Positions 14,013 through 24,547 of a stretch of 64,000 nt of DNA are shown one piece after another. Location of the stretch: positions 1-64,000 of IMG/VR virus record IMGVR_UViG_3300032053_000047, one strand, 5' to 3'. Both the position numbers and the translations under genes were made by a program. This stretch comes from a virus. Position 1 is the stretch's first letter. Each line of letters opens with the position of its first letter. Under the pieces are notes generated by a model, which did no database searches, was not told where the DNA came from, and was given only the letters and a program-made list of their open reading frames with translations.

Positions 14013-14453
14013 ATGGCGAGCACATGGATTTCTGAAGTCGCTGCCGATACCTATTTCGCAACGCGGCTCGGCGCATCAACCTACTGGAGCAGCGGGGCAG
14101 AAAAAGAGGCCGCGCTAACTACGGCACAATGGCAGATCGAGAATTCCGATCTGTTTGGCGGTTATCCCGATGTATCCGTAACGGGCGAAGTTGCAACGCA
14201 GGCCATGGCGGATGCCGTGTGCGAGCAGGCGCTGTTCCTATTGCAAGACGCCGATGTCGATACCCGCGTGAACCTACAGGCGCAAGGAGTTCAGCAGGCA
14301 GGCATGGTGCAGGAGACGTACAAATTGGGCAACGGCAGGATCGCCATATCGGGCCGTGCTTATGCGTGTATGCAGAAAGCGGGCTACCTCAAATACGGTA
14401 AGGGGTTCCGGTATGACAGTCTGGCCAGCCAGAACGCCGATGATCTCGACTAA
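14013..14453 (+). CDS. Head-tail connector / DnaT-like family protein
   Basis: A 146-residue protein with the pattern of the phage family annotated as DnaT-like or head completion: an early ADTYFATRLGAS segment, AALTTAQWQIEN, and an all-helical middle (ADAVCEQALFLLQDAD). These proteins usually dock under the portal. Its start follows GAGGGCGTGTC, and its stop overlaps the next gene. Confidence 0.65.
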   Translation: MASTWISEVAADTYFATRLGASTYWSSGAEKEAALTTAQWQIENSDLFGGYPDVSVTGEVATQAMADAVCEQALFLLQDADVDTRVNLQAQGVQQAGMVQETYKLGNGRIAISGRAYACMQKAGYLKYGKGFRYDSLASQNADDLD

Positions 14454-15799
14454 TGAAGGCAACCCACGTAATGCTTTTACAGCGGCGTAACGCGCAACGA
14501 AATCAAGTAGTTGATAATCAGGAAATATACAAGTCACAAATGTCGCCGCCGATCCCGCCCTGCCCCCTTTCCACACAACCGATTTGCGGACAACCTCTAT
14601 ACACGGTCCTCGACGACGGGGCTTGGGCGGGACAACGTTGTTTTCTAATTGGCGGCGGACCCTCTTTGATCGGATTCGATTTCTCGCGTTTGGATGGCGA
14701 ACTTGTTATCGGGATCAACCGGGCGTATGAAAAAATTGATCCGGCGATCATCTACACGATGGATACCCGTTTTATCGCATGGGCATCTAGCGGCACTATC
14801 AGTATTGAGGCACGCAAAAAACTCTATACGTCATTGGCTACCCGCGTTTTTTCTCGGGCATCTACAAAAAATTATCCTAAAGGTTTTTACATTATCGAAC
14901 GTTCAGGAAGCGACTTGTTTCAAGGCAGTTTACGCAAAGGGTGGTGTGGGCACAACAATTCCGGGTCCGGCGCATTATCTTTGGCGATAGCCCTCGGCTG
15001 TTCTGAAATTTACTTGCTTGGGTTTGACATGCACGGCGATCCGGTTACGGACAAACAAACCTGGTGGCATTCAGGGTATCCGGCGGACAGCATACAGAAA
15101 GCCAGCGTGGTCTACAAGGCAATGCGGAGCGCATTCGGACATCATGCGGATGCCATTAAAGAACGCGCGCGCGTTATTAACTGCAATCCCGATAGCGCAC
15201 TTCGCTGTTTTGAGTTTGGAGATCTCCCTGAACCATGTCCGCCGCGCCCTACGGTTGTGGGTTTCTACACGGCTGGAACTGGGTATGAAGCCGAAGCGCG
15301 AGAGATGATCGCCAGCGCTCACCGTATGGGACTCAGGACTGATGTGCGGGCAATTGAGAATCAGGGTTGGCAACGGAACACCTCGTATAAGCCGCGGTTG
15401 TTGCAGGAAATGGTAGAGAAATATTGGGAATCCGCTATCGTCTATACCGACGCCGACTCCCGGTTTATGCGTTACCCGGCGTTATTCAATGCCGATGGCG
15501 GTCTAGCCGATTTTGCCTATCACCGCCATAAGAGCAAAGAGGTTCTATCCGGCACGTTATTTATCCGCTGTAACGAATCCACCGCGGCACTTATGCGGCT
15601 CTGGGCTAAAACGTGTGAGCAAAATCCGCAGACATGGGATCAACGAAACCTGGAAATCGCGCTGGGCAAATGGGACGGCAACTGTTCCATATTGCCAGCC
15701 GAATATTGTTGCATCTTCGATTACAAACCCGCTCCCGATAAGCCCGTGGTAATTCACTATCAGGCGAGTCGGCGGCTGAAAAAGGAAGTAGGTGCCTAA
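14453..15799 (+). CDS. Two-domain glycan enzyme (DUF115-like plus nucleotide-diphospho-sugar transferase-like)
   Basis: A 448-residue protein. Residues about 58-250 resemble DUF115/MptE-like Rossmann proteins: QRCFLIGGGPSL, DGELVIGINRAYEKI, IYTMDTRF and the GSGALSLAIALGCSEIYLLGFDM segment. Residues about 265-445 look like a GT-A-type sugar transferase with VVGFYTAGTGYEAEA and the putative metal site AIVYTDADSRF. It opens the island of glycosyl- and methyltransferases. Acceptor unknown. Confidence 0.7.
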   Translation: MKATHVMLLQRRNAQRNQVVDNQEIYKSQMSPPIPPCPLSTQPICGQPLYTVLDDGAWAGQRCFLIGGGPSLIGFDFSRLDGELVIGINRAYEKIDPAIIYTMDTRFIAWASSGTISIEARKKLYTSLATRVFSRASTKNYPKGFYIIERSGSDLFQGSLRKGWCGHNNSGSGALSLAIALGCSEIYLLGFDMHGDPVTDKQTWWHSGYPADSIQKASVVYKAMRSAFGHHADAIKERARVINCNPDSALRCFEFGDLPEPCPPRPTVVGFYTAGTGYEAEAREMIASAHRMGLRTDVRAIENQGWQRNTSYKPRLLQEMVEKYWESAIVYTDADSRFMRYPALFNADGGLADFAYHRHKSKEVLSGTLFIRCNESTAALMRLWAKTCEQNPQTWDQRNLEIALGKWDGNCSILPAEYCCIFDYKPAPDKPVVIHYQASRRLKKEVGA

Positions 15800-16020
15800 T
15801 GTACTTCCTAGTCACCGGCGTACTGCGTGGCAGACCGGGCAAACATCATTTTGCGATCTGCGCCGATGACCATGAGCAGGCGGCCACGACGTTGCGGCGA
15901 ACACGCCCGAATCTCTGCGATGTTCGGTTTGAAGCATGGAAAATGTTTGCTGGAGAATCCTGGTTTAGTTACGAACTTGATGAAGATACAAAACAATGCC
16001 TGGTAAAACTACAAAACTAA
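15799..16020 (+). CDS. Hypothetical protein
   Basis: A 73-residue ORF overlapping the stop of the preceding gene by one base (TAATG). Mixed alpha/beta pattern; no family recognised. It overlaps the next gene by 25 bases. Confidence 0.5.
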   Translation: MYFLVTGVLRGRPGKHHFAICADDHEQAATTLRRTRPNLCDVRFEAWKMFAGESWFSYELDEDTKQCLVKLQN

Positions 16021-16208
16021 AGAGCGGCAAAGTCCGCGTGCGATGGGGCGGCAAAGTCGTTGCCAAGAAGACGACAAAGAAGAAAGCCCAAGCCCAACTA
16101 AGGTTGCTCAGGGGAGTCGAACACGGATGGAAGCCAACAGGGAAAAAAGCGAGCAAAAAGAAGAGCAAGAAGGCGAGCAAAAAGAACCGGCGGAGTAAAC
16201 GGAAATGA
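15996..16208 (+). CDS. Small lysine-rich basic protein
   Basis: A 70-residue protein with about 40% Lys/Arg; the C-terminal third is a run of KKASKK-like repeats. The N-terminal part (GKVRVRWGGKVVAK... QLRLLRGVEHGW) resembles a small phage protein found near structural genes. Nucleic-acid or capsid-interior binding is plausible from charge alone. Confidence 0.6.
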   Translation: MPGKTTKLKSGKVRVRWGGKVVAKKTTKKKAQAQLRLLRGVEHGWKPTGKKASKKKSKKASKKNRRSKRK

Positions 16209-17083
16209 TCGGCCACTACGTTACCGGCAATGACAAGGCCCATCTATATACGCCCACCTATGAACATTATTTCAACTGTCCCATCATAGGCACATTCAAC
16301 GTCAAGATCGATGGACGCATTAACGATTACCGGCCCTGTATTGTAGATGAGCAGGAACTAGACCGCCGCTTTTGGGTTGTCCGTATCAATGACAAATATT
16401 TCGCATGGGCGGTACGTTGGCGCGGTTCAAAAATGCCGTACAACATAATCGAACTCGTGTCCAAAATGCCGTTACCCGACGATCTCAAAGAAGGCGATCT
16501 ATCTATCGAAGTGCTGGAACCGCTCATAGGCGCTGAACTCCAGAAGTGGATATCTCAGCAAACCTACTGGTTCCAAAGTTTCTCATGGTCGCCGCAACGG
16601 GCCGACTCGGCACTAGTATGGAACGCCGTCAAGGATCATGTGGATTGGTCTGGCAAAACATTACTCGATATCGGCGGGGCAAACGGGGCGCATTGTTTCC
16701 CGCCGTCGCGGCTGGGGGCGCGGGTTACGTGTTTTGAACCCGATACGCCCGCCCGCGAAAAAGGGATGTTCATAAACGACCATATTGAGATGTGTGACGT
16801 GACCTTCTGCGATGCCGACTCCGATGGCGTGTTCGACGTGATTTTCTATTTCTCCGTGCATCACCAATGGGATGAAGCCTATTCGCATTTAGCGGAAACG
16901 CTTGCGCAGTTTAAGAATCGGGCGCGAGAGAAAGTCTTTGTCGAACTGATTGTACCTGACCTCACTAACAAACTCACTGAACTGCAGATTGACGCGATTG
17001 TCGGCGGTCAACCACTTCTAACCTATCGGCACAAAGTACGGCGAGTGCGGCGGATTTATGAACTAATAGGGGAAGCCGAATGA
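16205..17083 (+). CDS. Class I SAM-dependent methyltransferase
   Basis: A 292-residue protein. The C-terminal domain from about residue 145 has motif I (KTLLDIGGANGAHC), the acidic end of strand 2 (VTCFEPD), and a motif IV-like VIFYFSVHHQWDEA. The first 120 residues are a separate domain with no match that I know. The substrate may be a sugar or virion protein, inferred from the flanking glycosyltransferases. Confidence 0.7.
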   Translation: MIGHYVTGNDKAHLYTPTYEHYFNCPIIGTFNVKIDGRINDYRPCIVDEQELDRRFWVVRINDKYFAWAVRWRGSKMPYNIIELVSKMPLPDDLKEGDLSIEVLEPLIGAELQKWISQQTYWFQSFSWSPQRADSALVWNAVKDHVDWSGKTLLDIGGANGAHCFPPSRLGARVTCFEPDTPAREKGMFINDHIEMCDVTFCDADSDGVFDVIFYFSVHHQWDEAYSHLAETLAQFKNRAREKVFVELIVPDLTNKLTELQIDAIVGGQPLLTYRHKVRRVRRIYELIGEAE

Positions 17084-17826
17084 TCTCTATCGTCATGCCC
17101 ACGTATAACCAAGGCTGGTATATCGCTGAATCCGTCCGCAGTGTTCTGGCGCAAACCTATAGCGATTTTGAATTGATCGTTGTGAATGATGCTAGTACCG
17201 ATGATACCGCGCAAGTGCTTAGTGCGTTTTTTCATCCCCGGATGATTGTCTTGACACGCACCGAAAACGGCGGCACGGGATTGACGTTAAACACCGGATT
17301 CAATGCGGCGTCACCCCAATCGGTTTATGAGACGTGGTGGGCATCAGATAACGTGATGTACCCGCAGAACCTGGCGATCCTTACGAAATACCTCGATGAT
17401 CACCCTGAAATAGATTTCGTTTACGGCAACTGTGATATCCGGCAAATGGATGCGAACGGAAAAGAGATCGGGCGCAAAAACTTACTGGCTGAGGTTAAAA
17501 CACAGACGTGGGATTTAGATCGCTTCTTACAGTCCTACCACCTCGGCATCTGCTGGTTATGGCGTCGGGCATTGCGGGAACGGGCCGGATGCTGGTTTCA
17601 AAAAACACCTTGCGAAGACTATGACATGACCGTGCGTATGGCCGCTGTCGGCGGACAGTTTGCCCATATCCCGCAGACGCTCGGGTGGTTCCGGCGGCAC
17701 AATCAGAATATGTCATGCCGCATCCGGGGCAAGGGGATCGCGCCGAATTACGCGCAGAACTTGCGCAAATTTCAGTATATCCAAGAACACGGTATCAGTG
17801 CGTGGATGAAAGAAACGGCGCAATGA
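17080..17826 (+). CDS. Family 2 glycosyltransferase
   Basis: A 248-residue GT-A enzyme: ISIVMPTYNQGWYIAESVRS at the N-terminus, ELIVVNDASTDDT, and a WWASDN element in place of the usual DxD. Such enzymes transfer sugar from a nucleotide-sugar. The ATGA overlap on the methyltransferase and the ATGA overlap with the next gene place it in one translated unit. Confidence 0.85.
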   Translation: MISIVMPTYNQGWYIAESVRSVLAQTYSDFELIVVNDASTDDTAQVLSAFFHPRMIVLTRTENGGTGLTLNTGFNAASPQSVYETWWASDNVMYPQNLAILTKYLDDHPEIDFVYGNCDIRQMDANGKEIGRKNLLAEVKTQTWDLDRFLQSYHLGICWLWRRALRERAGCWFQKTPCEDYDMTVRMAAVGGQFAHIPQTLGWFRRHNQNMSCRIRGKGIAPNYAQNLRKFQYIQEHGISAWMKETAQ

Positions 17827-18782
17827 AGATCCTACTCCTAAATTTGGAATTCGATTGCGGCGGCGCATCTTGGAATCTGATGGAGGCGATCCGGACGTGC
17901 CACCCTGGGCACGAAGTCAGGCACGCCATATTCAAGACCACCTACGCCGCTCCTAATAGTGACATTCTATTCAAGCGAGTAGAAGATCTGTTGCCGTTCT
18001 GCGAATGGGCCGATGTGATTCACTTCAATAACTGGCTTTGGACACACAAACCCGGCAACAATCGGCTCGGGTTCTATCCCGTTAATGAGTATGGCGGACC
18101 CTCGCCGTTTGAATCCGTATTGCAGGACAAAAGCAAAACTATCGTTTATCATTTCCACGGCGGCAATCACCAACTCAACCCGAAATATTGGCTTGACGAA
18201 TGCACTCGCATTGGCGTTCGTATCCTGAAATGCGACCCGTTGTGTCCGATACCCGGTGCAACATGGTTGCCAAACGTACTCGACCTGAAACCCGCGCAGG
18301 TCTGCCGACATCAGCCGTTCGGCGTGGCTATCATGGGCAATGTTAGCGATCAACGCCGAAACAATTATGCTATCCAATCCGTGTTGAAATACCTCGATAT
18401 CCCGCACAAGTTTTTTGGTGAAGTTCCCCGTCAAATTGCTCTCGTGGAACGCCGCAAATACCCGGTGTGTATTGATAATCTCACCCAGGGGTTCGCAGGC
18501 ATGTGGACGTGGGAAGCCCTCGCCATGGGACAGGTGCCGATTGCGCGGCTGGACCCGGCGGTAACGGTGCAATATCAGGGTGCGCCTATTGTCCAATGTC
18601 CCAACCTCGATTGGGTATCATTTCGACTTCGGCGATTTCAGGATGACCCGGTATTCTGGGATCAATGGTCGCGGGCCGGGGTTGCGTGGACGGAGGAACA
18701 CAATTCATCTGCCGCGGTAGCGGGCCGGTATATCGAGTTTTACCAAAAGGCAAAAGATGATCCAGACAATCTCAATCATTGA
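17823..18782 (+). CDS. GT-B-type glycosyltransferase-like protein
   Basis: A 319-residue protein starting MKILLLNLEFDCGGAS, with ADVIHFNNW in the N-domain and a C-domain reading GVAIMGNVSDQRRNNY and WTWEALAMGQVPIARLDP. This is the GT4/GT1-like two-Rossmann layout. The ATG at 17823 overlaps the previous stop and is preferred over 17685. Donor and acceptor are unknown. Confidence 0.7.
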   Translation: MKILLLNLEFDCGGASWNLMEAIRTCHPGHEVRHAIFKTTYAAPNSDILFKRVEDLLPFCEWADVIHFNNWLWTHKPGNNRLGFYPVNEYGGPSPFESVLQDKSKTIVYHFHGGNHQLNPKYWLDECTRIGVRILKCDPLCPIPGATWLPNVLDLKPAQVCRHQPFGVAIMGNVSDQRRNNYAIQSVLKYLDIPHKFFGEVPRQIALVERRKYPVCIDNLTQGFAGMWTWEALAMGQVPIARLDPAVTVQYQGAPIVQCPNLDWVSFRLRRFQDDPVFWDQWSRAGVAWTEEHNSSAAVAGRYIEFYQKAKDDPDNLNH

Positions 18783-19299
18783 CATCTGCAACCTAATACT
18801 TAAAAAGTGGGGTGCTGAATCCGCCCTTGAACTCGGTTGCGGTATCTGCGGGATGATTTCCCGCCTGCATCTAAACGAACGCCGCGTCGGTATTGATAAC
18901 TGGCAACCGTCTCTAGATGAAGCACGCGAGAAATTCCCTTTTGTAAAAACCATTTGCGCAGACATCCGCAGGGTAGGCGAGTTGTTCGTCCCCAGTAGTA
19001 TAGATATCGTCTGCGGGTTCGATATCTTGGAACACCTCCTATATGCAGATGCTATGCAGGTTATGGATGCTGCCGAACGCATAGCCCGGAAAGGAGTCAT
19101 TTGGTGGGGACCGCTCGAAGAAGACGAACCGCGCGATATTGAAACCCATGGCAACCCCGGCATGAAACACATACGGATTATCAACCTGAATGAATTTGAG
19201 ACACGGGATTATGAATTGATCACGTTTCCCCATTATTGGACAGAACTACCCATGTATGGGGCTACCGGATTTTTGGCATTCAAAGGAAGTGCGCAATGA
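18757..19299 (+). CDS. Class I SAM-dependent methyltransferase
   Basis: A 180-residue protein with motif I SALELGCGICGM, VGIDNW at strand 2, TICADI at strand 3 and the motif IV region IVCGFDILEHL. The layout is that of a small Rossmann methyltransferase. It overlaps the preceding gene by 26 bases and the radical SAM gene by 4. Confidence 0.8.
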   Translation: MIQTISIIDICNLILKKWGAESALELGCGICGMISRLHLNERRVGIDNWQPSLDEAREKFPFVKTICADIRRVGELFVPSSIDIVCGFDILEHLLYADAMQVMDAAERIARKGVIWWGPLEEDEPRDIETHGNPGMKHIRIINLNEFETRDYELITFPHYWTELPMYGATGFLAFKGSAQ

Positions 19300-20270
19300 C
19301 CCAATCAGGTCCGGCCTTAGTAACACAATATTTATCAGCCAGCACGTATCCGGCAAAACTGATTGCCGATCCGGGTACGATTGCGATGATCAAACGCGGG
19401 TTTATCCCGCCCATTCACGTACAACTATCACCAACAAACCGTTGTACACGCGCCTGTAGTTTTTGCAACTGCCGGGGCCGCGACAAAGACGCCGAACTAT
19501 CATTAGCCCAGATCATGCAATGCCTCCGGGACTTTTTCTCGTTAGGTGCGCGGGCATTGACCATTACGGGCGGCGGCGAACCGCTTTGTTATCCCGATCT
19601 CGATGCCGTGATCGAGTTTGCTGCTAACCTCGGGTATGACGTGGGGCTGATCACAAACGGCGATTTACTGAGTGTGAAACCGTCAGATGCCGCGCTTCAC
19701 CGCCTAACATGGTGCCGGATCAGTGCAAGCGATGAAACGAATCAGATAGCCGCACTGGAAGAGCGTGTTGCCGCCCATTTTTCCGTTGACTGGGCGCTCA
19801 GTTATGTTGTCACGGCAAAATTCGATTCAAGTAACCTAATGGAACATATCGCATGGGCTGAACGCGCCAATATGACGCATATCCGCATCCTAGAAGATCA
19901 CACCAATCTCGGCAAGACGCTGGGCATTGAACAGGTTGAAGCGCTTGTCGGGGTTGACAATCCGCGCATCATCTACCAGCACCGAAAAGAGTTCTTCCGC
20001 GGTCCCGCTAATTGCCGGATCGGATTGCTCAAGCCCTATGTCGGCTCTGAAGGAAACATATACCCCTGTTGCGGAATCCAATTCGCCCTCGGTGATAAAC
20101 GATATGCTCTACCGAAAGAATTGTCTCTATGCGCTATTGAAGACATTAAAGAGTTCTGGCATAAGCCGACGCTATTCAACGGTTCCCAATGCGTCCAGTG
20201 CTACTATCAAATGTACAATGACGTACTGCGGATTCTCACTTCCAATATTGCGCATGGGGGGTTTCTATAA
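19296..20270 (+). CDS. Radical SAM protein with C-terminal cysteine cluster
   Basis: A 324-residue protein with the radical SAM motif CTRACSFC (C50, C54, C57) and ALTITGGGEPLCYPD for SAM binding. The C-terminus has CC...C and CVQCYYQMYND, like SPASM-type auxiliary cluster proteins, which often modify peptides or sugars. The ATG at 19296 overlaps the methyltransferase stop. It is the last large enzyme of the island. Confidence 0.8.
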   Translation: MTQSGPALVTQYLSASTYPAKLIADPGTIAMIKRGFIPPIHVQLSPTNRCTRACSFCNCRGRDKDAELSLAQIMQCLRDFFSLGARALTITGGGEPLCYPDLDAVIEFAANLGYDVGLITNGDLLSVKPSDAALHRLTWCRISASDETNQIAALEERVAAHFSVDWALSYVVTAKFDSSNLMEHIAWAERANMTHIRILEDHTNLGKTLGIEQVEALVGVDNPRIIYQHRKEFFRGPANCRIGLLKPYVGSEGNIYPCCGIQFALGDKRYALPKELSLCAIEDIKEFWHKPTLFNGSQCVQCYYQMYNDVLRILTSNIAHGGFL

Positions 20271-21191: not shown

Positions 21192-21463
21192 CTGCAACAG
21201 AAATTAGCGCACTCAATGCGACCGTAGACAAAATCCTCGGGGTTCTACAGGGTGAACCCGGCGAAACGGGACTTGTCAGTGAAGTTAAGGCTATTGGGGT
21301 AGAACTCGCTCAGCAAGGAGTCCGCCTTGAAATACACCTAACGGCACACAAGGAATGCGATACTAAAAAAGAAACTCGCATGTGGGATATATTTAAGACC
21401 ATACTTATTCCGCTTGCCGCCGGACTAGTTAGCGCAGCCCTCGTAGTATGGGGTCTAAAATGA
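21188..21463 (+). CDS. Small membrane protein with C-terminal TM segment
   Basis: A 91-residue protein with an amphipathic N-terminal part and one C-terminal membrane span (TILIPLAAGLVSAALVVWGL). The layout resembles XhlA-type phage membrane proteins, though the true lysis genes appear to lie at 38-41 kb. ATGA overlaps couple it to both neighbours. Confidence 0.55.
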   Translation: MTATEISALNATVDKILGVLQGEPGETGLVSEVKAIGVELAQQGVRLEIHLTAHKECDTKKETRMWDIFKTILIPLAAGLVSAALVVWGLK

Positions 21464-23337
21464 GCGCCCAGCGGGGTCGCCCCAACCTGCCGCCCGACGT
21501 GACGCGCGCGCAACAGGAACTTATCCGGGCATACCGAAATGCTACCCGGCGGCTAGAACGGCAACTCTCAGGAGCCGCCCTTACGGATTTCCAGCGGTTC
21601 CGAATCACCGAACAGCTTCAACAGATCCGAGTTATCATTGCAGCCCTTAATCAACAGGCCCAGGATGCCGCACAGCGCATGATCGGCCCATCCTATAGGG
21701 TAGGGATCAAACTGTCCGCGGACGCCCTTGTACGGGCTGGTATCGAAGTGAATATGGGCAATGTATTGGCTACTGAGGCTATTGCGGTTGTTGCCGATCA
21801 AATGGCGATGGATCTTATTGCTGCGAATGCCAGTTTGGAAATACAGGCGCGGCGGTTTTTGCGGCTTACGCAACAAAAGTTGCTCACTGAACAACAGATT
21901 AACCAAGGGATCGCCCGAGGGATTATCGAAGGTGAAACCCGGAAACAGGTGAGCGACCGGCTGTTGAAGCAGCTTAAGGGGAAGATGGAAGAAGGCGCAC
22001 GGATCGTTATCAAGTGCAAGGATGGCAAACTCCGGTCCTACGACCCGGCCCAATATGCCGAACTTGTAGCACGCACGCGCACGCGGGAAGCCGTTACGCA
22101 GGGGACGATCCGCACCGGCATGGACTATGAAGTCTACCTATTTCAGGTATCCGTGCATTCCGGGGCGTGTGAGATGTGTATCCCGTTTCAGGGCAAAGTG
22201 TTTGCTATAGTTGACGGTACGGGGTATCCGATACTAAAGGAAAGCCCCCCGTTTCATCCGAACTGCATTTTGCCGGAAACGCCTGTCTTTGCCCCTGGTA
22301 AGCGGGCCGCATTTGTTGCCGCCTACAACGGCCCGGTAATCGATATTATTCTGTCCAATTCCGCAAGGGTGTCCGTCACCCCGAATCACATGCTCCTGAC
22401 CCCGACCGGGTTCGCTTTTGCAAAGGATCTTTGCGAGGGACAAGAGGTACTCTATAGCACCGCCTTTGAGAATGTAGTATTTGGACACCCAAATAATAAC
22501 AACCGTCCATCCTTCATCGCGGATATAGTCGAATCGCTTTCTAAAACGAGCGGCATGTGCTCCAGTAGCGTGCCAGCTACCTCCGAAGATTTCCACGGCG
22601 ATGGGCGGTTCGTTAATAGCGACATCAATGTTATATGGGCCAATGGCCTTTTGCGAAGTAATATCGAATCCAAATCGGGCGAGGTGCCGAGCGAGAACGA
22701 TTTCGATGGGACTGACATTGCTCTGTTTGGTCTCACGTGTTGTCGCACGACGGCAAAGATGCTCAAAACTTTGGCGCTTGCCGCGGACGGCATCATGGGC
22801 GGCTTTCGTGATGGCTGCGCGGCCCTCTGGCCCCATCTTCGCCATGGCAATTTTGGTGGCTTCGCTTCCAGTACGCTTCTTAATTTTACCCCTGCGGAGA
22901 ATTCCATCAATGACGCACTGAATTGTTCCGAATTCACGCATCAATTCTCCTACACTCTCTCCGGCACAATAGCGCGAGCAAATCTCATTCGCGGGCAACA
23001 ACAGTCCCGGCCTTTGATTTCTCTTGATGCCCCGCCTTTTCAGGATGCCGTTAACATCAACGGGAAATTGTTTCTTGATTTCCTTAAACGGAATTCTAGC
23101 CAAATAGGCGTTGCACACGTCGTCTTTAAGGGAATTCGGCAATATTCTGGGCATGTCTATGATCTCCAAACTGATTCATCATTATACCTATGTAATGGCA
23201 TAGTATCAAGTAATTGCGGCCATGTCCTAACTGCCTTTATCCCCCGCGACGACGAACAAAACACCGCCCTGCGCCAGTTTTCCCACACCCGGGGGGGCGT
23301 TGCAGATTATGAGGAATACCAGGCCGCAATAGCTTAA
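21460..23337 (+). CDS. MuF-like minor head protein interrupted by an intein
   Basis: A 625-codon frame. The exteins form a MuF-type head protein of about 308 residues: helical N-terminus, RTREAVTQGTIRTGM, then CEMCIPFQGKVF and the family signature FHPNC. The intein (residues 269-585) splits that signature exactly at HPN|C, and the C-extein is the last 40 residues beginning CGHVLTAF. The ATG at 21460 overlaps the preceding stop and is preferred over 21448. MuF proteins sit inside the head near the portal. Confidence 0.85.
   Translation: MSAQRGRPNLPPDVTRAQQELIRAYRNATRRLERQLSGAALTDFQRFRITEQLQQIRVIIAALNQQAQDAAQRMIGPSYRVGIKLSADALVRAGIEVNMGNVLATEAIAVVADQMAMDLIAANASLEIQARRFLRLTQQKLLTEQQINQGIARGIIEGETRKQVSDRLLKQLKGKMEEGARIVIKCKDGKLRSYDPAQYAELVARTRTREAVTQGTIRTGMDYEVYLFQVSVHSGACEMCIPFQGKVFAIVDGTGYPILKESPPFHPNCILPETPVFAPGKRAAFVAAYNGPVIDIILSNSARVSVTPNHMLLTPTGFAFAKDLCEGQEVLYSTAFENVVFGHPNNNNRPSFIADIVESLSKTSGMCSSSVPATSEDFHGDGRFVNSDINVIWANGLLRSNIESKSGEVPSENDFDGTDIALFGLTCCRTTAKMLKTLALAADGIMGGFRDGCAALWPHLRHGNFGGFASSTLLNFTPAENSINDALNCSEFTHQFSYTLSGTIARANLIRGQQQSRPLISLDAPPFQDAVNINGKLFLDFLKRNSSQIGVAHVVFKGIRQYSGHVYDLQTDSSLYLCNGIVSSNCGHVLTAFIPRDDEQNTALRQFSHTRGGVADYEEYQAAIA
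22234..23154 (-). CDS. Vsr-type homing endonuclease encoded antisense to the intein
   Basis: A 306-residue protein from ATG 23154, preceded by GGAG nine bases upstream. Two helix-turn-helix units occupy about residues 7-45 and 55-90, then a linker with PEGRAAITKAAHDAVRG. A Vsr/DUF559-type nuclease domain follows: PIEIVLARHL, YNIDVAI with the catalytic Asp, and AVEIFGGSWH with Glu and His. After it comes a tail of about 60 residues that is the complement of the intein N-terminal domain and runs 30 bases into the extein. It probably cuts intein-less MuF alleles. Confidence 0.8.
   Translation of the reverse strand: MPRILPNSLKDDVCNAYLARIPFKEIKKQFPVDVNGILKRRGIKRNQRPGLLLPANEICSRYCAGESVGELMREFGTIQCVIDGILRRGKIKKRTGSEATKIAMAKMGPEGRAAITKAAHDAVRGKRQSFEHLCRRATTRETKQSNVSPIEIVLARHLARFGFDITSQKAIGPYNIDVAINEPPIAVEIFGGSWHATGAHAARFRKRFDYIRDEGWTVVIIWVSKYYILKGGAIEYLLSLAKILCKSEPGRGQEHVIRGDGHPCGIGQNNIDYRAVVGGNKCGPLTRGKDRRFRQNAVRMKRGAFL
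22264..23214 (+). other. Intein in the MuF gene (sense strand)
   Basis: 317 codons from Cys1 to Asn. Block A is CILPETPVF; block B VSVTPNHMLLT with the TxxH pattern; block F YSGHVYDLQT; block G NGIVSSN followed by extein Cys+1. The penultimate residue is Ser, not the usual His. Between blocks B and F lie about 220 residues with no LAGLIDADG or HNH motifs. That stretch reads as the in-register complement of the endonuclease on the other strand. Confidence 0.85.
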
Positions 23338-23346
23338 GCGGGTTTG

Positions 23347-23375
23347 TGGACAACTCAGGAAAGGTATGATATACT
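23347..23375 (+). promoter_or_regulatory. Sigma-70-type promoter for the tRNA-like gene
   Basis: -35 TGGACA (23347-23352), 17-base spacer, -10 TATACT (23370-23375) with a preceding ATG A. The expected transcription start is near 23382, about 25 bases before the tRNA-like sequence. This is one of the best host-type promoters in the window and sits inside the late module. Confidence 0.6.
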
Positions 23376-23406
23376 ATTGCTGTGATTGGCTATGCCTGAC
23401 AAGCGT

Positions 23407-23503
23407 AAGGTCGTCGTCTAGCTGGCTTAGGACAGTTCCAAAAAGGCAGTTTGTCGCTGCTGAGTACCGAGAAAACGCGGGTCCGAATCCCGCCGACCAG
23501 CCA
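23407..23503 (+). tRNA. Atypical tRNA-like gene, identity unclear
   Basis: A D-arm in the style of Glu tRNAs (GTCT, loop with GG, GGAC at 23416-23433) and a good T-arm (GCGGG, TCCGAAT, CCCGC at 23477-23493) are present, and the 3' end CGACCAGCCA carries CCA. The acceptor pairs at only 5 of 7 positions. A GCAG/CTGC stem with a 7-base loop (23447-23461) could be the anticodon arm, reading UGU, but is displaced by about 11 bases. Possibly degenerate or specialised. Confidence 0.4.
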
Positions 23504-23559
23504 TCACTCGCTTGCTTGAAAGCGATTTCCGCAATAACCTAACCCGCCTTTACCCAATC

Positions 23560-23569
23560 CGGTACAGTC
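23560..23569 (+). promoter_or_regulatory. CGGTACACTT element, copy 4 (variant)
   Basis: CGGTACAGTC, a two-base variant, in the gap after the tRNA-like gene. An ATG four bases on opens only a 7-codon frame. Possibly a decayed duplicate of copy 5, which lies 199 bases downstream. Confidence 0.4.
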
Positions 23570-23605
23570 CCCCATGCTTAATCTAATCCGCTAATGCGGA
23601 GGTGG

Positions 23606-23684
23606 AAGGCCCGTGCAGGGCCTTTGTTGCCACTGAAATCGCGTATGCGCCGTAGGTGACTTGGTGGTGGTGAAATTCACCTAC
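23606..23684 (+). other. Two hairpins in the noncoding gap
   Basis: AAGGCCC/GGGCCTT (23606-23624) with a T-rich tail resembles a terminator for the tRNA-like transcript. GTAGGTGA (23652-23659) and TCACCTAC (23677-23684) form a second 8-bp stem. No ORF is supported between 23338 and 23783. Confidence 0.45.
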
Positions 23685-23705
23685 CATAGAATAGGTAGAA
23701 TTCTT

Positions 23706-23736
23706 GGCCCGCCAACATCATGGCGGGCCTTGTATT
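23706..23736 (+). terminator. Rho-independent-type terminator
   Basis: GGCCCGCC, an 8-base loop, and GGCGGGCC form a perfect 8-bp stem followed by TTGTATTG. It would end transcription of the preceding unit just before copy 5 of the CGGTACACTT element restarts it. Confidence 0.6.
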
Positions 23737-23758
23737 GTATTCGCCTCTTTACCTTCCC

Positions 23759-23783
23759 CGGTACACTTCCCCACCCTATCCCC
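23759..23783 (+). promoter_or_regulatory. CGGTACACTT element, copy 5
   Basis: CGGTACACTT (23759-23768) with 15 bases to the ATG at 23784; no Shine-Dalgarno sequence between. The spacing is the same as in copies 1 and 3. Confidence 0.5.
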
Positions 23784-24080
23784 ATGTTGGACTCCTATCT
23801 GACAGATTCGATTGTGTGGGTTCAATCCACCGGAAACGATGAATTCGGCGATCCGCTGACTCCCACGTCCACCACGATCAAGGCCCGCGTCAATTGGGTT
23901 ACGAAACTCGTAACGGACTTTGCGGGCGAACAGGTGCTTGCCGCGGGTCACGTGGACATGAAATCCAAACCGTCCCACGCTGATAACCTCACGATTAGCG
24001 GGGTAGATCACATCATTATCCGTATCGAAGAACTCAAATCCTACTCCCGCGTCTGGGGATACCGGGTGTATTTCCAATGA
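23784..24080 (+). CDS. Head-tail adaptor / head closure protein
   Basis: A 98-residue, beta-rich protein with TDSIVWVQSTGNDEFGDPL at the start and a GVDHIIIRIEELKSY strand pair near the end, as in small head-closure proteins of siphoviruses (SPP1 gp16-like fold). The order head closure, neck, terminator, tube that follows supports it. The ATG at 23784 sits 15 bases after the CGGTACACTT element and is preferred over longer forms. Confidence 0.65.
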   Translation: MLDSYLTDSIVWVQSTGNDEFGDPLTPTSTTIKARVNWVTKLVTDFAGEQVLAAGHVDMKSKPSHADNLTISGVDHIIIRIEELKSYSRVWGYRVYFQ

Positions 24081-24547
24081 GCGCCGAACGCGATCTATCT
24101 GCGGGCCTGGGCGCGGCTGATAAGGCCATGCGTGATGCGGCCATGTTCGGCATGGGCCGGGCAGGGTTGATGCTGTTACATGACTCAATTTTAGAACAGC
24201 CGACAGTGCCGAAAAAAGAGGGTGATCTACGCGGGTCAGGTTCAGTTCATGTACAGGGCAAGTTCCTAGAGGCATCCCCGGCTATCGGTATTGATTCAAC
24301 GCCAAACACGGCCAACATTGACCCGCCGATTGGCGACGTTATCGAAGCCACGGTCGGATTCAACAAACCCTATGCGGCTGTCCAGCATGAAGGCACATGG
24401 CAGACCGGCCCGCTGGCAGGTGTCCAGATCGTCAACTACACCGAACCGTCAAGTGGGCCGAAATTTCTTGAATCCAAAATGGCGGCACACGGCGAACGCT
24501 ATATAGAAGAGGCAGCGGACACCATGCGGCGGAGGATGGGATCATGA
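24077..24547 (+). CDS. Neck / tail-joining protein, HK97 gp10-like
   Basis: A 156-residue protein with a helical start, RGSGSVHVQ, FNKPYAAVQHEG (family-typical YA..hE) and a C-terminal PKFLESKM...AADTMRRR helix. These features fit the HK97 gp10-like neck proteins that join head and tail. ATGA overlaps couple it to both neighbours. Confidence 0.7.
   Translation: MSAERDLSAGLGAADKAMRDAAMFGMGRAGLMLLHDSILEQPTVPKKEGDLRGSGSVHVQGKFLEASPAIGIDSTPNTANIDPPIGDVIEATVGFNKPYAAVQHEGTWQTGPLAGVQIVNYTEPSSGPKFLESKMAAHGERYIEEAADTMRRRMGS

Follow-up and report, generated by a model that had tools for sequence, protein, structure and literature searches.

Canonical large inteins are inserted in frame at a conserved motif of the host protein, have the blocks of the Hint domain and carry, between blocks B and F, a linker endonuclease of the LAGLIDADG or HNH type that is part of the intein polypeptide. 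Homing endonucleases of the Vsr type (EDxHD) are known with split inteins and with group I introns; I-Bth0305I and its family combine a Vsr-like catalytic fold with an N-terminal DNA-binding region, and are associated with inteins. Two other arrangements are also close to the one described here. The ShiLan insertion in a phage DNA methylase holds an HNH endonuclease hidden out of frame on the sense strand, keeps the frame of the host gene open and has no splicing motifs (PMC11855218). In nuclear group I introns of Porphyra, homing endonuclease genes lie on the complementary strand, antisense to the host gene within a splicing element (PMC2585584); because this element is an RNA intron the host-strand frame need not stay open, and there is no dual coding. 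No account of an antisense endonuclease within an intein was found in the searchable literature (bioRxiv and most subscription journals lie outside the search), and the ‘complementary strand’ of two intein papers refers to contig orientation only. For overlapping frames in actinophages, the ShiLan paper cites a preprint by Gosselin, Arsenault and Gogarten (10.1101/2025.01.02.630785) and Gorbalenya 1998, ‘Non-canonical inteins’ (PMC11855218). The preprint, on actinophage inteins of ‘non-canonical architecture’, could describe the Gordonia cases treated below.

The window, by which we mean the whole stretch of 64,000 nucleotides that was analyzed, belongs to a virus record of 72,989 bases and contains a muF-like minor capsid gene (21460..23337, + strand) whose product matches PF04233 (Phage_Mu_F), PF06152 (Phage_min_cap2) and the minor head protein phrog_4611 (2.9e-38). 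The MuF frame runs without a break across an insert of 317 codons (951 bp; 22264..23214, +) with the junctions HPN|CILPET...VSSN|CGH. We consider it very probable that this insert combines an intein and a homing endonuclease, each encoded by one strand of the same DNA. A preliminary description had placed a complete intein, with blocks A, B, F and G, in the muF gene, and all four blocks are seen, including Cys1, TPNH in block B, GHVYDLQ in block F and NGIVSSN|C in block G. C1, H42 and N317 are invariant among 38 relatives, T39 is among the residues that are invariant or nearly so, and the C+1 nucleophile is present in 125 of 125 elements. Matches to intein families are weak, at 4.5e-5 for PF14890 (Intein_splicing), which is under the gathering score of the family, and 15.8 bits for TIGR01443 (intein_Cterm), with a cut-off of 15.6; profile matches to inteins in the PDB reach 2.9e-10, and Foldseek pairs the intein model with Mtu RecA inteins, with a probability of 1.00 but an E value of 0.004, and with other inteins. 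In a model of the sense protein, built from an alignment comparable to that used for the endonuclease, the splicing ends mostly have a pLDDT above 90, while the linker is largely of low confidence (below 50 for residues 193–261). By its motifs the sense strand is an intein within MuF, with intact splicing residues, and it falls into class 1: the catalytic residues and the predicted Hint fold of the splicing domain are in place, the HPN|C site is in frame and empty alleles occur in relatives of the element. The MuF precursor would be expected to splice.

On the opposite strand lies a predicted homing-endonuclease gene of 306 codons and a stop (22234..23154, −; PF18741 MTES_1575, 1.3e-9), which runs from the ATG at 23154 to the TAG at 22234 with codon boundaries that coincide with those of the sense frame. 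Exact register is to be expected, because no other antisense register lets both strands stay free of stops simply by dropping TTA, CTA and TCA, codons whose amino acids have synonyms. None of the three occurs among the 31 Leu and Ser codons of the endonuclease or in the 297 overlapped codons of the sense frame, and there are five in the 20 sense codons beyond the endonuclease ATG. Over 125 elements they number 0 against about 760 expected in the endonuclease frame, and 15 against 1026 in the frame of the sense linker. What the preliminary description had claimed for this layout holds, one point excepted: a 306-codon antisense gene in register and free of the three codons, an ATG that lies opposite the His codon of block F as its complement (CAT, 23152–23154) and a GGAG over the Leu-Gln codons (23164–23167, CTC-CAA). 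Its statement that one 951-bp element codes for both proteins stands for the two frames but not for the limits, since the endonuclease frame of the window overshoots the intein by 30 bp and ends inside the N-extein, unlike 116 of the 125 elements, in which the endonuclease stop lies inside the intein.

The AlphaFold model of the antisense protein, based on an alignment of 38 relatives, has a mean pLDDT of 90 and bears out, together with the fold search, the two helix-turn-helix units and the Vsr-like domain that had been read from the sequence at the outset. It consists of two trihelical helix-turn-helix units (residues 7–40, 23035..23136, −; residues 55–88, 22891..22992, −), for which the relatives also match helix-turn-helix families, and a nuclease domain of the order alpha-beta-beta-beta-alpha-beta-alpha (residues 146–246, 22417..22719, −). 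PF18741 (MTES_1575, restriction-endonuclease-like) is matched by 37 of the 38 relatives, and there are weak matches to DUF559 and Vsr as well. Among solved structures, VIA-align superposes the model best on 3hrl (Z 11.1), on Vsr (1cw0; Z 10.3, 2.7 Å over 111 residues) and on the catalytic domain of the homing endonuclease I-Bth0305I (3r3p; Z 10.1, 3.6 Å over 95 residues), and Foldseek finds Vsr and I-Bth0305I with E values of 0.011 and 0.055 and a probability of about 1. D177, E188, H195 and R207 are invariant and E151 is nearly so; by conservation alone these residues are consistent with the EDxHD motif, with R207 located where the last Asp of that motif might be expected. The antisense protein is thus a predicted Vsr-like (PD-(D/E)xK) endonuclease with two putative DNA-binding helix-turn-helix units, and it is probably the enzyme that spreads the insert.

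Compared with the systems above, the element shares with canonical large inteins its in-frame insertion at a conserved motif, its Hint blocks and the position of the endonuclease between blocks B and F, but the endonuclease is on the opposite strand, with its own start codon and Shine-Dalgarno sequence and often a promoter. It differs from the I-Bth0305I/EDxHD family, with which it shares the catalytic fold, a DNA-binding region at the N-terminus and the link to inteins, in being encoded antisense inside an unsplit intein, in its two helix-turn-helix units and in its Pfam family, MTES_1575. A split intein with an EDxHD endonuclease in a fractured gene was rejected, the sense frame being continuous in the window and in all 153 listed loci. 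The ShiLan insertion likewise keeps its endonuclease out of frame in an open host gene; there, however, an HNH enzyme is encoded on the same strand, whereas the endonuclease of the window is antisense and Vsr-like and the splicing motifs are conserved and under selection, and an insertion of that type was also rejected. The antisense position inside a splicing element recalls the Porphyra introns, but a group I intron with an antisense endonuclease gene was rejected in turn: Rfam has no match at 22000–24100, ARAGORN detects no RNA element in the region either, and the reading frame is open throughout.

Relatives of the element are widespread. A tblastn search of phage genomes returned 128 records, the leading ones antisense within MuF or minor-head genes. 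In 24 annotated phage and plasmid loci the sense frame is open, without a stop, and the endonuclease is antisense in exact register; the phages are those of Gordonia, Mycobacterium, Rhodococcus, Salmonella, Escherichia, Pantoea, Cronobacter, Edwardsiella, Klebsiella, Pseudomonas, Vibrio, Idiomarinaceae and Aggregatibacter. The one plasmid intein locus is in a Chloroflexota record (Promineifilum, L025), the other plasmid matches being mostly DUF559/DUF3320 nucleases. With the endonuclease as query, contigs of IMG/VR and GTDB gave at least 153 loci (108 unique at 95% identity), from scans that took the best 80 loci each, so that uncommon members, decayed or otherwise arranged, may be underrepresented; prophage-type loci are found in genomes of Chloroflexota, Actinomycetota, Gemmatimonadota, cyanobacteria, gammaproteobacteria and others. 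All 153 listed loci have the gene antisense inside an intein, in phase 0 and without an in-register stop, and in every case the endonuclease match falls within the sense ORF; stops average 17.2 and 8.2 in the remaining two frames of the complement. The N-terminal splicing domain alone, used as query, led to 21 loci, every one on a contig already known to carry the antisense gene. Small multi-member alignments were needed as queries for viral contigs, in which the protein of the window by itself recovered no relative. In essentially all relatives the antisense frame is kept and stays open. Two controls behave as they should: an unrelated intein that occupies the same muF site in Gordonia phage Lennon has numerous stops on the antisense strand and lacks such an endonuclease, and a free-standing homologue in Acinetobacter phage P1068 has many in-register sense stops. 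The latter (L023, 1621–2514, +) is convergent with, and overlaps the end of, an uninterrupted muF gene, and is possibly an ancestor-like or escaped form that acts on muF from next door. No host gene other than muF was established; 24 unique loci that miss the MuF profile have either a junction of the MuF type (HPxC/CxC) or divergent surroundings of the minor-head kind.

A few loci depart from the common arrangement. One nonsense codon interrupts the endonuclease at L197/L199 while the intein is intact, as is expected in a homing cycle. Rhodococcus phage REQ3 (L024) has a short intein in which Ala replaces the initial Cys, and an antisense endonuclease frame that is shortened, without the helix-turn-helix part and the usual start codon. 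At L115 the sense ORF (1233–2193, −) stops short of the C-terminal splicing block while the endonuclease is intact, possibly a split, frameshifted or decayed intein.

The complement of blocks F and G also seems to hold the signals for expression of the endonuclease. The complement of block F (YSGHVYDLQT; 23140..23172, +) carries both the start codon and a predicted Shine-Dalgarno sequence, GGAG (23164..23167, −), located 9 nt before the ATG. The ATG usually lies opposite the His codon of block F, which reads CAT in 97 of 108 elements as compared to 42% CAT in the exteins (p = 7e-25), and an SD-like sequence lies over the next block F codons in 88 of 108, against 24 in synonymous shuffles. Upstream is a candidate promoter that the preliminary description did not contain: TTGATA-17-TATAAT (23209–23181, −), with 11 of 12 positions matching the sigma-70 consensus, its −10 hexamer (23181..23186) at the same position in relatives and its −35 hexamer (23204..23209), beyond a 17-nt spacer, over block G codons. 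A perfect TTGACA-N17/18-TATAAT occurs in 18 of 125 elements and at least 11 of 12 matches in 33, mostly with the −10 ending 26–32 nt before the start; at 10 of 12 or better the site is present in 47, and so is not universal, in a scan that covers sigma-70 hosts. The best sites score 7.0 on average, as compared with 3.7 for synonymous shuffles (p = 4e-12), and the AT fraction is 0.59 in block G, 0.46 in the linker and 0.43 in the extein. Thus, about 21 intein codons appear to accommodate, in their complement, a promoter, a ribosome-binding site and a start codon, from which the antisense gene would be transcribed and translated.

Several lines of evidence point to mobility. The muF genes of Gordonia phages Vivi2 and Bibwit are about 96% identical and differ by exactly the intein, which is absent from Bibwit; those of Escherichia phages Snoke and fEg-Eco19, the latter empty, are about 94% identical and likewise differ by the intein. 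The MuF motif is exactly restored at these empty sites, which belong to relatives of the element; for the phage of the window itself, no allele without the intein was found. The inserts nearly always interrupt (H)xN|C(R)C. In KMB36 the Snoke site is unoccupied while a second site in muF holds a related element, and in one muF gene (L185) there are two inteins, each with an antisense endonuclease; another locus (L118) seemingly has two as well, the second of which was studied. Moreover, endonucleases 50–62% identical are found in hosts whose MuF exteins can be aligned over short stretches only. Homing by cleavage of intein-less muF is supported by the Vsr-like homing-endonuclease fold, the empty alleles, the polymorphic sites in close relatives and the similar elements in nearly unrelated hosts; the cleavage activity itself we infer. 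At the empty sites (L180 and L181), alleles with and without the intein are strongly divergent over approximately the first 20 bases past the insertion point, in otherwise nearly identical flanks, which could reflect co-conversion or target-site resistance. It could be argued that the antisense gene has been recruited to another role, for instance to regulate muF or to act as a nuclease against competitors, and has lost homing. Homing nucleases that exclude competitor phages are known, and promoter-driven antisense transcription over muF could repress muF early. Nevertheless, a homing cycle fits the patchy distribution with sites left empty in near-identical phages, the resemblance of elements from unrelated hosts and the occasional decay, and we regard domestication with loss of homing as very unlikely.

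If the element is indeed an intein with an antisense endonuclease, both frames should bear the marks of selection. Codon position 3 of the endonuclease is position 1 of the sense frame and vice versa; therefore, the two hypotheses, of selection on the one protein or on the other, predict opposite patterns. Single-nucleotide codon differences were counted in 28 independent pairs, 50–95% identical. In the linker, differences silent in the endonuclease but changing the intein number 1056, against 430 expected without constraint, and those silent in the intein but changing the endonuclease 287, against 429. In blocks F/G the pattern is reversed, with only 15 differences silent in the endonuclease alone (47 expected) and 140 silent in the intein alone (50 expected); the alignments were guided by the endonuclease frame, and it is these same alignments that give the reverse result. 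In the region of blocks A/B both classes are raised (239 against 174 silent in the endonuclease only; 321 against 179 silent in the intein only), and differences that alter both proteins are rare, at 81 against 321 expected; block B (VTPNHMLLTP; 22372..22404, +) is here the complement of the C-terminal EHVIRGDG segment of the endonuclease, and both frames are selected. The window and its closest relative (L029) agree with the linker pattern, with 46 differences silent in the endonuclease only (16.9 expected) and 11 silent in the intein only (17.0 expected). Selection is therefore not confined to the sense strand, and this result and the conserved, open antisense frame pass the tests by which the preliminary description said it could be refuted. 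Both frames are selected in different stretches, and the selected strand switches along the element: the antisense frame across the linker, the sense frame in the splicing motifs. The sense linker (22464..23100, +), translated as the complement of the endonuclease, is mostly a by-product obliged to stay open.

These counts bear on two further explanations. A real endonuclease might reside in an insertion that is dead or does not splice and that MuF tolerates, a proposal made for ShiLan in the phage methylase, and the PF14890 score under threshold would agree with this; but C1, the block B His, block F and Asn with Cys(+1) are invariant or nearly so in 38 diverse relatives, blocks F/G are strongly selected on the sense strand, and the Hint-fold matches and the exact restoration of MuF at empty sites speak for splicing, which makes a non-splicing insertion very improbable. 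That the antisense ORF is a by-product of stop avoidance on one strand, as often in GC-rich genes, with an accidental likeness to a nuclease, is hardly credible, for although in-register antisense ORFs are common in high-GC genes, and long ones also lie over the MuF extein at some phage loci, homology of 37 of 38 relatives to MTES_1575/DUF559/Vsr, the confident Vsr-like model, frames open in elements of 38–44% GC, where 9–24 TTA/CTA/TCA codons are expected, and linker substitutions that are silent in the antisense protein stand against it, the codon-position test refuting it.

For the intein with an antisense homing endonuclease, we propose the following cycle. The late muF transcript would yield a MuF precursor from which the intein splices itself out, while the antisense promoter would independently drive the endonuclease. 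In a phage genome without the intein, the enzyme would recognize and cut the conserved muF sequence for (H)PN|C(R)C, and repair off the intein-bearing copy would move the element into the cut genome. A likely benefit of antisense coding is that synthesis of the endonuclease, by the host sigma-70 RNA polymerase, would be freed from late muF transcription. We lean, with some reserve, towards the view that these elements form an undescribed class of two-strand mobile elements of about 0.8–1 kb, with a splicing element on one strand and, in register on the other, a mobility gene fully equipped with promoter, Shine-Dalgarno sequence, start and stop, residing at a conserved muF site in phages of several bacterial phyla.

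The element is a strong natural example of how one DNA can maintain, over great divergence, two unrelated proteins and a module of promoter, SD and start on its opposite strands, in which the strand switch in selection serves as an internal control. It offers a tractable system in which to time endonuclease expression against that of a late host gene, and to study how overlapping genes evolve and can be designed. Annotation gives the Snoke intein no endonuclease, and the same is true of all 24 annotated intein loci; annotation practice for ‘mini-inteins’ with long featureless linkers should change accordingly.

Two further features of the window may be noted. Just past muF, at 23411–23503, there is a tRNA-like stretch, uncalled by ARAGORN or Rfam, with a T-arm-like GCGGG-TCCGAAT-CCCGC and a CCA end. 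Between the capsid genes and muF, at 14453–20270, lie, as judged from reading the sequence, glycosyltransferase-like, methyltransferase-like and radical-SAM-like genes, which could modify the phage surface or host products.
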